Shown: piece after piece, positions 48,694 to 54,199 of the stretch
How the letters are laid out: every line of letters begins with the position of its first letter
Numbering within the stretch: the stretch's first letter is position 1
Source of the DNA: Fibrella aestuarina BUZ 2
GTDB taxonomy: Bacteria > Bacteroidota > Bacteroidia > Cytophagales > Spirosomataceae
Length of the DNA stretch: 64,000 nt
NCBI RefSeq assembly: GCF_000331105.1
Contig: NC_020054.1
Coordinates: forward strand, 5,176,555 to 5,240,554
Reading direction: 5' to 3'
Made by a program: the position numbers and the translations under genes
The notes under the pieces: generated by a model
Databases searched by the model: none
Told to the model about the DNA's origin: nothing
Seen by the model: the letters and a program-made list of their open reading frames with translations, nothing else

Positions 48694-48742
48694 CCCTTGA
48701 CCAACAGGCATCCCGCCTGTTCATAACCATCCCTATAATACC

Positions 48743-50602
48743 ATGAAAGGCGTACAGAAAACCAGTACATCGGGCCAGCCAATTTTGCCGGCTGCGGCCC
48801 AGACCGACCCAACCTGCCTGCCCGTTCCGCCCTCGCCCGAGTTGCGGGATAAACTCGTCAAGGAACTGGAGAAACTGCGTAAGCGCGAAACACCGCTGGC
48901 CGCACACCTGAATTTTCAGGAGCAAAACGTCGTTGGGCGCGATGATGGCCTCATCTACCCCGGCACCCTGTATCCGCTGGGAACAACGGCTTCCATTGCC
49001 CAGAATGGCGCTGCCGAACGCGCCCCGCTCCAGGGCACCGTCCGGGTGGCGATTGTGCTGGTCAATTTCAGCGACAGGGCCATCACGCAGCCCGCCAGCC
49101 ACTACAACCAGTTGTTTTTCTCGCTGGGTGCGATGCCAACGGGCAGCGTGCGGGAGTACTACCGCGAGGTATCAAACAACCGGGTCGATATCCAGGGCGA
49201 AATCGTGGGGCCGGTTACGCTCTCGCACCCGATGGCCTACTACGCCAACGGCCAGTCGGGACGCGGCAACGCCCTACCTAATTCGCGCACGATGGCGCAG
49301 GAAGCCGCCCAACTCGCCAACCCGCTCCTCAATTTTGGCAATTATGACAACGACGGCGACGGCTACATCGATGCGTTCATCGTCATTCACGCGGGCACGG
49401 GCGCCGAGCAGAGCGGCTCGGCCTCCGACATCTGGTCGGTGAAGTGGGTGCTGCCCAGTCCTTTCGCCGCCGATGGCAAAACCATCTATGCGTTCCTGAC
49501 AGTGCCCGAAAACTGCCGGACCGGCGTGTGTGCGCACGAACTGGGGCACCTGCTGTTTGGCTTCCCCGATCTGTACGACGGCGTGGGCATGGGCGAAGGC
49601 ATTGGCAACTGGTGCCTGATGGGCGGCGGTAGCTGGAACGGCGCTACCCCCGGCGACCGACCGGCGCACCCCTCGGCCTGGTGCAAGCTCCAGCAGGGCT
49701 GGGTGACGGTGGTGAACCAGACGGCCAACGCCAACGTGAGCCTGCCCGACGTAAAGAGCAGTTTCAAAGTGCACCGGCTCTGGAAAGATGGCGCGGCAGG
49801 CTCGGAATACTTCCTGGTCGAGAACCGGCAGAAGACGGGTTTCGACGACCACCTGCCTAACAGCGGCCTGCTGGTGTGGCACATCGACGACGCCGTGGGC
49901 AGCAATACCAACGAAGCCCATTACAAAGTAGCGCTGATGCAGGCCGACGGGCTGCGCGATCTGGAACAGAGCCACAACCGGGGCGACGCGGGCGACCCTT
50001 TCCCAGGCAGCAGCAACAAACGCACCTTCAGCGCGTCGAGCACGCCCAATTCCAATTCCTACGCGGGGGCAGCTACCTGCGTGACGATCAGCAACATTGG
50101 CGACCCGGCCGCCACTATGACGGCCCGCTTCCAGGTACGTTGTAAAGTGATCAAGGAATTCAAGGAGATCAAAGAGGTTCGTAAAGACGTCATCAAAGAC
50201 AAGGAGATTCACAAAGACCTCATCAAGGACAAGGAGATTCGTAAGGAATTCATCAAAGAGAAAGACTTCCTCAAAGATGTTCAGCCCGACAAGCGCATCA
50301 AGGAGAAAGACAAGGATAAGGACATCTTCGAGAAACCGGGCGATGGCAAGCTCGCCGACGGTCGCCCCGGCGAACTGGGCGGTGGCGGACTCGGCGCAGA
50401 TGCGGGCGGGACTGATCCGATGGCCCGCCTGACGGCGATTGAAGGGCGGCTCAATGCGCTGGAGCCCTTTATCAGTCAGTCGCTCCGGCCCGATCTGGTG
50501 GCGGGTGCTTACCGGCAGGAAGCCGACCAGGGGGGTGAGGCGCACGAACTCGACGCCGAGAGCAAGCGGAGTTTCGACACCAAAGTACCCGATACTATGT
50601 AA
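48743..50602 (+). CDS. M6 family metalloprotease with Lys/Glu/Asp decapeptide-repeat tail
   Basis: 619 residues. N-terminal 110 residues carry a short coiled coil (ELRDKLVKELEKLRKRETPL). M6 (immune-inhibitor-A-like) protease domain about 110-460: AIVLVNFSDRAITQP, GSVREYYREVSNNRVDI, a Ca2+-loop-like DNDGDGYIDAFIVIHAG, and HELGHLLFGFPDLYD with zinc ligands H265, H269 and a catalytic E266. Residues 471-520 are five decapeptide repeats of pattern K-[DE]-x-I-K-[DE]-K-[DE]-[IF]-x. Then come a Gly-rich linker and a short helix. No signal peptide is visible, unusual for M6. Head gene of a unit with the two ATP-grasp-type genes. Start: ATG after the -7 box at 48686. Confidence 0.9.
   Translation: MKGVQKTSTSGQPILPAAAQTDPTCLPVPPSPELRDKLVKELEKLRKRETPLAAHLNFQEQNVVGRDDGLIYPGTLYPLGTTASIAQNGAAERAPLQGTVRVAIVLVNFSDRAITQPASHYNQLFFSLGAMPTGSVREYYREVSNNRVDIQGEIVGPVTLSHPMAYYANGQSGRGNALPNSRTMAQEAAQLANPLLNFGNYDNDGDGYIDAFIVIHAGTGAEQSGSASDIWSVKWVLPSPFAADGKTIYAFLTVPENCRTGVCAHELGHLLFGFPDLYDGVGMGEGIGNWCLMGGGSWNGATPGDRPAHPSAWCKLQQGWVTVVNQTANANVSLPDVKSSFKVHRLWKDGAAGSEYFLVENRQKTGFDDHLPNSGLLVWHIDDAVGSNTNEAHYKVALMQADGLRDLEQSHNRGDAGDPFPGSSNKRTFSASSTPNSNSYAGAATCVTISNIGDPAATMTARFQVRCKVIKEFKEIKEVRKDVIKDKEIHKDLIKDKEIRKEFIKEKDFLKDVQPDKRIKEKDKDKDIFEKPGDGKLADGRPGELGGGGLGADAGGTDPMARLTAIEGRLNALEPFISQSLRPDLVAGAYRQEADQGGEAHELDAESKRSFDTKVPDTM
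50153..50302 (+). repeat. Five 30-bp coding repeats (decapeptide array)
   Basis: Units KEFKEIKEVR, KDVIKDKEIH, KDLIKDKEIR, KEFIKEKDFL, KDVQPDKRIK follow without gaps. Lys and Asp/Glu alternate, with a hydrophobic residue at fixed places. The DNA units are similar but not identical, so the repeat is old or under coding selection. Confidence 0.85.
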
Positions 50603-50615
50603 CTGGCGGGCGCAG

Positions 50616-50646
50616 TCCGTTGGTGGGCTAACCCCTCACCAACGGA
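50616..50646 (+). terminator. Intercistronic hairpin after the M6 gene
   Basis: 10-bp perfect stem TCCGTTGGTG / CACCAACGGA with an 11-nt loop, between the M6 stop and the next ATG (68-bp gap). No T-run; it may attenuate or process the message so the ligase genes are made at a lower level than the M6 protein. Confidence 0.5.
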
Positions 50647-50670
50647 TCGCCGCCTGAACCTGCCGAAACC

Positions 50671-51465
50671 ATGAAAACACTCCTGATCCTGGGGCATCTG
50701 CACGACGCCACCCTGCCCGCGCTGGCCCGCCTGCTGCGCGAGCGGGGAGCGGTGCGGGTCGAGTGCCTGACCGACGCCGATCTGATTGCCGCCCCCGACT
50801 GGCGGGTACAGCTTACCAACGACACCACCGACTGGCAGCTAACCCTGGCCGATGGGCGCCATTTTTCGGCCCAGACTACCGACGCCCTCTACAACCGGCT
50901 GGGGTATCTGACGCCATTGCCCTTTGCCAGCGCTACCGACACCGCCTACGCCCAGGCCGAATGGCACGCGCTGCTGGCCGGCTGGCTGCAAAACCTGGGC
51001 CCGACCCGGCGGCTGGGTACGTTGTTCCCGACCACCCTGGCCGTTGGCACCGCCAATCCGCTGCTGCGCGTACGTCAACTGGCGCTGGCGGGGCTGCCCG
51101 TCGCCGATCTGTGGGTAACGGCAACGCCACCCAAACAGGGGTTTACAGCCCCGGCCGCCTCCACAGCCGGCCAGTGGCGGCAGGAGACCCTCAATCACCA
51201 GTACAACTCCGTACTGGCCACGCGCCAAACCCTCACGGGCGCATTGGCCCGCGTGTTCCGCACGGGTATCCGCCAGCTACAGGCTCAGCTCGACTGCGAA
51301 CTGCTTCAGGTTCATTTCTGCCAGAGCGTTAGCGGCCACTGGAAAGCCACCAACTACCAGACGCTGGTGCAGCCCGGTTCGGAAGCTGAACTCGCCGCCC
51401 TGGCCACGTACCTGATCGAACGTACCCACGCCCCCGCCACTCACCTCACTCCTGCCCTGCCATGA
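50671..51465 (+). CDS. Degenerate ATP-grasp-like partner protein
   Basis: 264 residues; no named family recognised. The N-terminal third (MKTLLILGHLHDATLPALAR, TTDALYNRLGYLTPLPFAS) is like the pre-ATP-grasp domain of the neighbour at 51462 (TLDGLYARLMPPETFPD). The end (LQAQLDCELLQVHFCQSVSG, WKATNYQTLVQPGSE) aligns with that neighbour's LSKRLMLPLCGIDLFKTERD and CFEVNPSPGYTYFQ, but without the metal-binding E and N. The central ATP-binding part is much shortened. It is therefore probably a non-catalytic partner of the ligase. Its stop overlaps the ligase start (ATGA), which suggests coupled translation and a complex. Confidence 0.6.
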   Translation: MKTLLILGHLHDATLPALARLLRERGAVRVECLTDADLIAAPDWRVQLTNDTTDWQLTLADGRHFSAQTTDALYNRLGYLTPLPFASATDTAYAQAEWHALLAGWLQNLGPTRRLGTLFPTTLAVGTANPLLRVRQLALAGLPVADLWVTATPPKQGFTAPAASTAGQWRQETLNHQYNSVLATRQTLTGALARVFRTGIRQLQAQLDCELLQVHFCQSVSGHWKATNYQTLVQPGSEAELAALATYLIERTHAPATHLTPALP

Positions 51466-52418
51466 TCCTGATTGCTGGTATTGCCTCCGAAGAACCCACC
51501 GCCCAGGTGATTGAGAGCGCCGACGCACTGGGCATCGACTACCTGGTCTTCAATCAGCGCGACGCGGGCCACTACGACCTGCGTACGTCGCTGACGGCCA
51601 ACGGCCTGCGGGCCGAGTTGTGCATCGGCGGTCAATGGATCGACCTGACCACGCTCGATGGCCTGTATGCCCGCCTGATGCCCCCCGAAACGTTTCCCGA
51701 CGTGCAGGTGAAAGGCATGGCGCTACGCCTGCCACCGGCGCTGCACCAACGGCGGCAGTTCATCAATACCCTGTTTGCCCAACTGGTCGATCTGCTGCCG
51801 ATTCGGGTCATCAACCGCCACGAGGCGATGGAATCAAACTTCTCGAAGCCCTATCAACTGGCGGCGATCCGCGCCGTTGGCCTGGGTATCCCGGCTACGC
51901 TGCTGACCAACCAGGCCGGGGCCGTGGCCGACTTTGACACCGAACGAGGCCCACTTATTTTCAAATCCATCAGTTCGACGCGCTCGATCGTGAAGGTGCT
52001 GACCGATGAATACCGCGATCGGCTCCCGAACCTGACGGCGCTGCCTACGCAGTTTCAGGAACAGTTACGGGGTCACAACATCCGCGTACACGTGGTGAGC
52101 GACGCTCTGTTTGCCGCCGCGATCGACAGCACCGACGTGGATTATCGCTACGCCAGTTCGGGCGGTGGCCACACCACCATGCAGCCCGTTCTGCTGCCTG
52201 CGGCCATCGAAACGGCCTGCTTTGCCCTATCTAAACGCTTGATGCTGCCGTTATGCGGGATCGATCTGTTCAAAACTGAGCGGGATGCGTACTATTGTTT
52301 CGAGGTCAACCCATCGCCGGGGTACACCTATTTTCAGCACGAAGCCGGGTTACCGATTTCCGACGCCATTGCCCGTTACCTGGCGACGGGCTCGGCCGTT
52401 CGTCAGCCCGTTCAGTAA
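51462..52418 (+). CDS. ATP-grasp ligase (RimK/MvdD-like)
   Basis: 318 residues. N-terminal pre-ATP-grasp domain (1-110), then ATP-grasp motifs: Lys in GPLIFKSISSTRSIVK, QEQLRGHNIRVHVVSD with the nucleotide- and substrate-binding Arg, LCGIDLF with the metal-binding Asp and CFEVNPSPGYTYFQ with Glu/Asn. This is the group containing RimK, the graspetide ligases MvdC/MvdD and related peptide-modifying enzymes that join a carboxylate to an amine or hydroxyl. It overlaps the upstream partner gene by four bases. The substrate is not known; the repeat tail of the M6 protein in the same unit is a candidate (inference). Confidence 0.85.
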   Translation: MILIAGIASEEPTAQVIESADALGIDYLVFNQRDAGHYDLRTSLTANGLRAELCIGGQWIDLTTLDGLYARLMPPETFPDVQVKGMALRLPPALHQRRQFINTLFAQLVDLLPIRVINRHEAMESNFSKPYQLAAIRAVGLGIPATLLTNQAGAVADFDTERGPLIFKSISSTRSIVKVLTDEYRDRLPNLTALPTQFQEQLRGHNIRVHVVSDALFAAAIDSTDVDYRYASSGGGHTTMQPVLLPAAIETACFALSKRLMLPLCGIDLFKTERDAYYCFEVNPSPGYTYFQHEAGLPISDAIARYLATGSAVRQPVQ

Positions 52419-52432
52419 CCCGTTATCAGCCT

Positions 52433-52726
52433 ATGCAGATCATCGAAAATCGGACGCAGGTTCGGGGCGTGGTGCAGCACGTTTCTGCCCAAAGCGACGT
52501 AGCCCAGTTTGGGACCCTTCACCTGCTCGTGCAGCAATTGGCCGCCGTTGCCAACGTCGCCGACCTGCTTTCCTCCCGCGAGCCCATCAGCCTCGCGGTG
52601 CTGGTGCCCCTCGCTGAACTAACCAACGCCGATCTGACCGAGGGCCAGACGGTTGAGGTCGAGGTACGCCTCGCCACGCCTGACCGCCTTTTTGCCTACG
52701 CAGGTACGCTCCATCGCCTTCGTTAA
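52433..52726 (+). CDS. Small hypothetical protein of the M6/ATP-grasp unit
   Basis: 97 residues from ATG 52433, fourteen bases after the ligase stop, so in the same transcript. No family recognised. The text (MQIIENRTQVRGVVQHVS, ISLAVLVPLAELTNADLTEG, QTVEVEVRLATPDRLFAYAG) suggests a mostly beta, soluble protein without signal peptide or cysteine. It could be an accessory or recognition protein for the ligase. An in-frame extension reaching back into the ligase gene is not credible as a start. Confidence 0.65.
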   Translation: MQIIENRTQVRGVVQHVSAQSDVAQFGTLHLLVQQLAAVANVADLLSSREPISLAVLVPLAELTNADLTEGQTVEVEVRLATPDRLFAYAGTLHRLR

Positions 52727-52799: not shown

Positions 52800-52816
52800 C
52801 TTTCAATAAAACCATC

Positions 52817-54199
52817 ATGAACCCTCTTTCTTCGCCTCAGCCCTCGTTATTCGACCGGCTCAATCAGTGGTTACGCACGTCTACGCTCATCAAGCTGGCG
52901 ACGATTGGCATCCTTATTCTGGTATTGCTTATCCCAACCACCATGCTGCAAACCCTGATTTCGGAGCGGGAAAGCACCCGAAACACGGCCGTTGCGGAAG
53001 TGAGCGGGAAATGGGGCGGCGTCCAGACCATCAGCGGGCCGATTCTGTCGGTGCCGTATACGGTGGTGGAGAAGGACGAAAAAGGAAAAGAATCGCGCTA
53101 CACGGCCTACGCGCACGTTTTGCCCGACGACCTGCGTATTACCGGTACGTTGCAGCCCGAACAGCGCAACCGGGGCCTGTTTCAGGTGATGCTCTACAAC
53201 ACCCGCCTGCTCCTGCGGGGTACGTTGCCCCGCCCCGACATGGAGCGGCTCGGCATCGACCCGGCCGCCGTTCAGTGGAACCGGGCTTTTGTGTCGGTGG
53301 GCATCAGCGATATGAAAGGCATTAAAGACGAGGTACAACTGCGCGTGAGCAGCGGGGGCGGCGCGTTGCAACCCCTGACGGTCGAGCCGGGCGTACCTAC
53401 CGACGACGTGCTGGCCTCGGGCATCAACGCCCGCGTGCCGCTGGGCGACTCGCTGCGATTCGACTGCGAACTGAACCTGAACGGCAGTACGGATCTGTAT
53501 TTCATGCCGTTTGGCAAGCAAACGACCGTATCACTGACTTCGCCCTGGGCCACACCGAGTTTTGTGGGGGCGTCGCTGCCCGATCAGCGCACGGTGAGCG
53601 CGTCGGGTTTTGGGGCGCAGTGGAAGGTGCTGCAATACAACCGTAACTACCCGCAGCAGGGCCTCGGTGCCTTTCTGACGCACCGCTCGCCATCAGAGGA
53701 AGGCGTGACGGTATCGGCGGCGGTGGGTACCGAATTTGGGGTTCGGCTGCTGACGCCCGTCGACGAATACCAGAAAACGATGCGCTCGGCCAAGTACGCC
53801 GTTATGTTCATCCTGATCACGTTTACGGCCTTTTTCTTCGTGGAAGTGCTCGACAAGCGGCGCATCCACCCCATCCAATACCTGCTGGTCGGGTTTGCCA
53901 TCTGCCTGTTTTACCTCTTGCTGCTGGCCATCTCCGAGCATATGTCGTTCAATCTGGCTTACTTCATCAGCGCGGCGACGGTGCTGGCCATGATCACGTT
54001 CTACGTACGCTATGTCTTTGAAAATACCCGGCTCACGGCGCTGTTCAGCGGCATACTGGCCTTGCTCTACGGCTTCTACTTTTCGCTGCTGCAACTGGAA
54101 GACTATTCCCTGCTGCTTGGCACGCTCGGCCTCGCGCTGATCCTCGGTACGATCATGTACCTGACCCGCCGCATCAACTGGTACCAGGCCTACGCGTAG
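52817..54199 (+). CDS. creD: CreD family inner-membrane protein
   Basis: 460 residues from ATG 52817 (MNPLSSPQPSLFDRLNQWLR). One N-terminal helix (IGILILVLLIPTTML), a large periplasmic beta region containing the family motifs GGVQTISGPILSVPYTVVEK and HVLPDDLRITGTLQPEQRNR, and five or six C-terminal helices (VMFILITFTAFFFVEVLDKR, HPIQYLLVGFAICLFYLLLL). CreD maintains envelope integrity and is linked to beta-lactam or colicin response in enterobacteria; in Bacteroidota the role is less clear. A palindromic operator overlaps its promoter. The stop codon lies at the first base of heptad hairpin F. Confidence 0.95.
   Translation: MNPLSSPQPSLFDRLNQWLRTSTLIKLATIGILILVLLIPTTMLQTLISERESTRNTAVAEVSGKWGGVQTISGPILSVPYTVVEKDEKGKESRYTAYAHVLPDDLRITGTLQPEQRNRGLFQVMLYNTRLLLRGTLPRPDMERLGIDPAAVQWNRAFVSVGISDMKGIKDEVQLRVSSGGGALQPLTVEPGVPTDDVLASGINARVPLGDSLRFDCELNLNGSTDLYFMPFGKQTTVSLTSPWATPSFVGASLPDQRTVSASGFGAQWKVLQYNRNYPQQGLGAFLTHRSPSEEGVTVSAAVGTEFGVRLLTPVDEYQKTMRSAKYAVMFILITFTAFFFVEVLDKRRIHPIQYLLVGFAICLFYLLLLAISEHMSFNLAYFISAATVLAMITFYVRYVFENTRLTALFSGILALLYGFYFSLLQLEDYSLLLGTLGLALILGTIMYLTRRINWYQAYA

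Follow-up and report, generated by a model that had tools for sequence, protein, structure and literature searches.

The locus and its ATP-grasp genes

The DNA analysed here (the window) is a stretch of 64,000 nucleotides from Fibrella aestuarina BUZ 2 (NC_020054.1, positions 5,176,555 to 5,240,554), and our subject is a group of four consecutive plus-strand genes within it, in the order M6 metalloprotease, gene 2, ATP-grasp ligase and gene 4, together with a Lys/Asp/Glu (K/D/E)-rich tail on the protease. An original prediction, made from the sequence alone, had proposed that this tail is the substrate of the ligase. The gene positions and order it gave, the 4-base overlap of gene 2 with the ligase gene and the 14 bases between the ligase gene and the ATG of gene 4 at 52433 were confirmed on the sequence. 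The promoter box placed before the first gene was not upheld, as the TATAAT at 48734 to 48739 lies only 3 nt 5′ of the M6 ATG and a sigma-70 consensus scan listed no promoter at this site.

The first gene (48743 to 50602) encodes an M6-family metalloprotease of 619 amino acids (aa), which matched TIGR03296 (5e-68) and Pfam Peptidase_M6 (5e-26) and carries the HELGH of the HExxH signature within HELGHLLFGFPD at residues 265-276. Its K/E/D repeat, probably the cross-linked core, spans residues 471-531 (50153 to 50335) and contains 19 K, 9 E and 10 D in 61 residues, with 17 of the lysines directly followed by E or D. A Gly-rich linker, recognised from the sequence, follows at residues 532-559 (50336 to 50419), and then a putative C-terminal recognition segment, or "follower", at residues 560-590 (50420 to 50512), which was defined by the alignment A5 and holds FISQSLRPDL at 576-585. 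The repeat provides donor (Lys/Ser/Thr) and acceptor (Asp/Glu) residues like those of graspetide cores; the protein as a whole differs from the usual graspetide precursor, a short peptide with an N-terminal leader and a C-terminal core, in being a large enzyme with a repeat and then a C-terminal motif.

Gene 3 (51462 to 52418, 318 aa) matched Pfam RimK (2.9e-10), and its best NCBIfam model was TIGR04187 (5e-31), although it stayed below the cut-offs of all three graspetide synthetase models (108 of 350 bits for TIGR04187, 78 of 425 for TIGR04185 and 72 of 475 for TIGR04184). In a profile comparison it matched MdnC at 1.6e-46 and five further graspetide synthetases at 3e-32 or better, against 8e-16 for RimK, and the nearest neighbours of its predicted fold were solved graspetide synthetases. 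The putative functional residues were almost invariant among its relatives, namely K129 (82/82), K168 (81/82), D227-Y-R (80/80 with letters), D268 (81/81), E281 (81/81) and N283 (80/81), the D-Y-R being equated by eye with a DFR motif (PMC13097080). Both the profile and the predicted fold mark gene 3 as an intact ATP-grasp ligase of the graspetide synthetase type.

Gene 2 (50671 to 51465, 264 aa) had no Pfam or NCBIfam match, and its ATP-grasp ancestry was recognised from a profile match with a probability of 84 (E = 7e-6) and from a longer gene 2 at another locus (L122) that matched a ligase at 3e-11. The equivalents of K129, K168, D-Y-R, D268, E281 and N283 are absent from the window protein. 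Gene 2 is thus, judged from its sequence, a degenerate pseudo-ligase relative of gene 3, so that the description of the two genes as an ATP-grasp ligase pair was half right: the ancestry is common to both, and only gene 3 retains the catalytic residues.

Association of the tail with the ligase

We scanned named genomes for relatives of the ligase and took the best 80 of 119. An upstream gene whose product ends in an FI-x(2-4)-RP motif, mostly behind a K-[E/D] repeat, was present in 65 of these 80 loci (an automatic rule, two of whose choices were corrected, found 61 tailed genes, and another four were taken manually from profile hits), while the same motif occurred in the last 100 residues of 7 of 1920 other open reading frames (ORFs) of at least 150 aa. 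Gene 2 was present in 79 of the 80 loci, and in Fibrella aquatilis the carrier, as we call the tailed protein, and gene 2 are fused in one frame of 909 aa (L048:4275-7004, the same locus as L008). Closer to the window, the search for the M6-tail/ligase combination in relatives was productive: with gene 2 as the query, 150 family genomes yielded six units, in which the carrier is an M6 protease in three cases and an S8 subtilase in the other three; every one has a K/E-rich tail ending in LE-x-FIS-x-x-RPDL. The unit is shared by relatives and, when other carriers are included, extends across phyla of both bacteria and archaea.

The carriers were of many kinds. Kinds were assigned by Pfam for 30 of the 65 tailed proteins, by NCBIfam for some, by eye for L052 and L089, and by BLASTP clusters for the rest. 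The more frequent carriers were M6 proteases (13), an unnamed cyanobacterial protein (11), S8 subtilases (6), DUF6519 proteins (6), trypsin-like proteins (4, mostly under the Pfam cut-offs) and astacins (4), and the rarer ones were Kelch (3), Ig-like Big_2 (3), C13 (2), tyrosinase (1) and TIG (1) proteins, with one PQQ-like propeller and one cysteine-peptidase-like protein under the cut-off. Four further proteins consisted of little but the tail, three were given no kind (L077, L098 and L110) and two were cut at the N-terminus (L062 and L073). On these assignments, M6 is one of at least 14 carrier kinds in the 65 tailed loci, and a Rho_N protein in genome G684, found in the search described below, adds a further kind.

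The tail model A5 was used to locate tails independently of the ligase. In the genome of the window it gave one match, at the ligase (E = 2.3e-17), the second hit (E = 0.69) being at chance level, and in 19 genomes it gave exactly one match each, which by coordinates lay inside the tail gene. In larger draws, tails were detected in 7 of 150 family genomes and 3 of 395 phylum genomes, nine of them different; seven of the nine were already known, and the two new ones (G067 and G684) both had gene 2 and the ligase directly behind. As A5 was built mostly from tails of the RPDL type, RPxVG-type tails encoded in trans would be missed by these searches.

We then compared the carriers and the motifs on a tree of 79 ligases, made by a quick method and with 27 open forks. 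The carrier type required at least 20 changes over 17 states, whereas the motif type changed only once (37 RP[DNE]L and 28 RPxVG, with 2 left out); when the motif types were shuffled 200 times, the mean was 21 changes and the least was 16. The comparison supports the tail, and not the protease, as the part that remains with the ligase across loci, and the conserved C-terminal motif beyond the K/D/E tail is probably the recognition element. The proposal that the K/D/E tail of the M6 protein is the ligase substrate is strongly, if indirectly, supported, and has to be widened in that M6 is one carrier of many. An objection foreseen with that proposal was that the ligase might be widespread without an M6 or repeat-tail neighbour: it is indeed common without M6, but 65 of 80 loci have a tailed neighbour.

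Among the M6 carriers of the 80 loci HELGH was intact in all 13. We identified 22 M6 matches in 281 genomes of the order, three of them tailed (G000, G056 and G192); among the remaining 19, the C-terminus was readable in nine, none of them tailed, and 14 of the 19 start, by eye, with a Sec-type signal, while one relative (L203) has neither tail nor signal. The window protein shows no evident Sec signal at its N-terminus, and a crude hydrophobicity rule found a strongly hydrophobic N-terminal stretch in none of the 57 carriers examined out of the 65 tailed ones. The tail and ligase of the M6 proteases thus occupy the place where their relatives have a Sec signal and, by eye, a C-terminal sorting domain.

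Composition of the repeat and the proposed tail modification

Repeat statistics were taken from the 53 of 67 tails with a charged segment of at least 20 residues. These segments contain 30% K, 21% E and 10.5% D, and their order is directional: K was followed by E or D in 619 of 870 cases, while [E/D]-K occurred 259 times, as in shuffled sequences, and K-[E/D] was the favoured order in 43 of the 53 repeats. Successive K-[E/D] pairs were three residues apart in 253 of 566 steps, compared with 11.5% in shuffles. In the 15 loci above 60% GC, the K:R ratio was 246:53 in the repeat versus 120:282 in the bodies of the proteins. As a control, 649 ORFs in 800 kb of four related genomes were used; their 21 charged segments gave 23 K-[E/D] and 28 [E/D]-K, a K:R ratio of 76:125 and, among 11 steps, none of three residues.

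Taken together, these data point, with a probability of roughly 0.7, to a system for the modification of tails on full-size proteins that is built on graspetide chemistry, and the substrate role originally proposed for the tail is probably right. The M6 protein would be made with a C-terminal tail consisting of the K-[E/D] repeat, a flexible linker and a follower in the form of a helix plus FI-x-x-x-x-RP-x-L. A complex of the active ligase and its degenerate partner, gene 2, would bind the follower; the ligase would use ATP to phosphorylate Asp/Glu side chains in the repeat, which would then be attacked by those of Lys. The product would be a set of Lys-Asp/Glu isopeptide (lactam) links, that is, a stapled tail with the folded carrier attached. 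We infer the gene 2-ligase complex, the follower as binding site, the Lys-Asp/Glu links and the pairing of residues from these comparisons. The stapled tail might serve as a rigid, protease-resistant spacer or anchor, or take over from the usual export signals, which is a guess. The fuller picture, at a little short of even odds, is of a widespread bacterial and archaeal system in which a synthetase and a pseudo-ligase staple the C-terminal tails of many folded full-size proteins through a natural follower, the stapled tail of the M6 proteases perhaps serving localisation or delivery.

Several observations weigh against this reading. Loci L083, L100, L124 and L127 had no tail that we could find despite available upstream sequence, and related loci (7 from Okeania, 5 from Variovorax and several from Streptomyces) are not independent. 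The repeat was shorter than 20 residues in 14 of the 67 tails, almost without K-[E/D] in L052, L068 and L098, and richer in [E/D]-K than in K-[E/D] in 6 of 53 repeats. Ser/Thr made up 2.4% of the tails and 3.3% of the control segments; being low in both alike, it is not evidence for lactams, and we dropped that argument. An acid at +4 of K was found at a frequency of 0.49 over all repeats versus 0.32 in shuffles, and weakly in the window tail (4 of 19 K). As the three-residue spacing by itself accounts for this excess, it reveals no connectivity, and i to i+4 stapling as in corallotide was dropped as a stated connectivity. Lastly, a second lineage, in G105 and G130, has an astacin (5.6e-48) carrying four TIKEVxKDPI-like repeats; the gene that follows immediately is a lone, more distant ligase, and these loci have neither gene 2 nor an FI-RP motif.

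Alternatively, the ligase may add amino acids, or another amine or acid, to side chains of the tail in the manner of RimK. We consider such tagging unlikely, because the profile match to graspetide synthetases is better by 30 orders of magnitude than that to RimK, and because Lys and acids are both enriched in the fixed order K-[E/D], an arrangement that the tagging of a single kind of residue would not call for. A slightly smaller chance attaches to intermolecular links, by which tails would be coupled to one another or to a different polymer, yielding an assembly or a surface anchor. The carriers are often of extracellular kinds (M6, S8, tyrosinase, Ig-like and Kelch), yet none of the 57 has the hydrophobic N-terminus mentioned above; a repeat with many units would lend itself to multivalent linking, and ThfB can cross-link assembled protein chains (PMC12291112). 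However, characterised graspetide synthetases make intramolecular links (PMC13097080), and no recurring partner substrate gene was seen in the loci.

The conventional view, in which the protease serves in the maturation of, or resistance to, a small graspetide and its tail is incidental, is very improbable. Such roles were proposed for the "diverse families of neighboring proteases" of synthetase group 32, which may overlap these loci (PMC13097080), but non-proteases bearing the same tail are found in this position, the upstream product is hardly more than a tail in four loci, no K/E-rich small ORF lies beside the window unit, and the tail follows the ligase while the protease changes. The least credible alternative makes the tail no more than a charged linker or a coiled segment and has the ligase act on something else. 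Charged low-complexity segments are common, and three tails are nearly without repeat; against this stand the directional K-[E/D] and the preference for Lys over Arg even at high GC, both unlike the controls, and the occurrence of one tail per genome, at the ligase.

The proposed tail modification was compared with known systems. The graspetide synthetases (MdnC/MdnB, PsnB, CdnC, PruB and ThfB; TIGR04184/04185/04187) share with the window ligase the fold, the layout of pre-ATP-grasp and ATP-grasp, the ATP-binding residues, D-x-R and an adjoining repeat substrate candidate. The window ligase differs in always having a pseudo-ligase neighbour, and its substrate candidate in being a full-size protein whose recognition motif is C-terminal. 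According to Carter et al. 2026 (PMC13097080), corallotide of graspetide group 15 (Corallococcus) likewise has a large precursor with several Lys-Asp isopeptides in repeats; it has an ordinary N-terminal leader domain and an extra oxygenase, is confined to one genus, and no enzyme domain is described on its precursor there. In the same source, the rosaritide synthetase requires a second protein, as may be the case here, but that partner, MirC, is SurA-like whereas gene 2 is an ATP-grasp homologue. Group 32, with its diverse neighbouring protease families, resembles our loci; there the proteases are read as maturation or resistance genes. Johnson 2026 (PMC13003496) reports that the leader for the fuscimiditide synthetase ThfB works when moved to the C-terminus, and the recognition tetrapeptide RPFG contains RP, a likeness to our motif noted by eye; the C-terminal position is engineered there and natural here. 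Cyclisation of proteins by ThfB is described in Choi 2025 (PMC12291112). The sections of Makarova 2022 consulted (PMC8939145) list associated genes, and no such tailed carrier was seen in it; the literature searched, which covered few subscription papers, contained no description of a graspetide tail on a carrier protein. If the proposal is correct, graspetide chemistry would also be a protein modification, acting across phyla on proteases, a tyrosinase, propellers and Ig-like proteins; it would offer a natural C-terminal-tag method for stapling proteins with a ready carrier family, and would explain protease-plus-ATP-grasp neighbourhoods hitherto read as peptide maturation.

Variant loci and neighbouring genes

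In the 15 untailed loci, L095, L113 and L118 are cut at contig ends, and eight (L096, L103, L104, L116, L117, L121, L122 and L123; SH-aLRT 99) form one clade of another type with the same ligase, no tailed carrier and a longer gene 2. L096, L116, L121 and L122 and, by eye, L123 encode a small peptide whose YxxPLLxxHG motif resembles that of a lasso leader. L122 further encodes a PqqD protein (5.7e-19) and, below the cut-off, an HPr-kinase-like protein, which is also present in L116. In L011 and L094 (Spirosoma luteum) an in-frame stop breaks the ligase frame, while the carrier and gene 2 are open.

Viral spread was considered and set aside; a scan of a viral collection gave two relatives, one of which (L198), on a contig classed as viral, comprises a tailed carrier resembling DUF6519 proteins by eye, gene 2 and the ligase. 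No PADLOC defence model matched any of nine proteins, and the idea of a defence system was dropped. A baseplate-like ORF was found in 7 of the 80 loci (L085, L092, L106, L109, L112, L115 and L119; TIGR02243 was tested on L092, with 208 bits against a cut-off of 155.8, and the other six were called by BLASTP to L092). In five Variovorax it precedes the DUF6519 carrier at the upstream border of the locus, and in two Streptomyces it lies several kb downstream. Since TIGR02243 had no match in the genome of the window and exceeded the cut-off in only 8 of 20 genomes, a contractile injection particle was rejected as a general delivery route. Clusters of neighbouring ORFs, many of them shadow frames in GC-rich loci, revealed no universal extra gene such as a transporter or leader protease.

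Gene 4 (52433 to 52726), a co-linear accessory gene encoding a 97-aa protein that lacks a Pfam or NCBIfam match, had been counted as part of the unit. Among the four Bacteroidota M6 loci read, a homologue stands behind the ligase in G056 and G142 and none was seen in G192; on this comparison gene 4 does not belong to the system in general. An assignment to the emfourin kind of protease inhibitors, guessed by eye, was abandoned, the proteins of the window and G142 and two S8-type small proteins having no Pfam match above the cut-off. A 90-aa protein, two examples of which were tested against Pfam and gave no match above the cut-off, takes the place of gene 4 directly behind the ligase in five S8-type loci (L084, L088, L094, L105 and L125). 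Downstream of the unit, window positions 52814 to 54199 encode a CreD-like inner membrane protein (7e-156), a homologue of which also lies behind the G056 unit.

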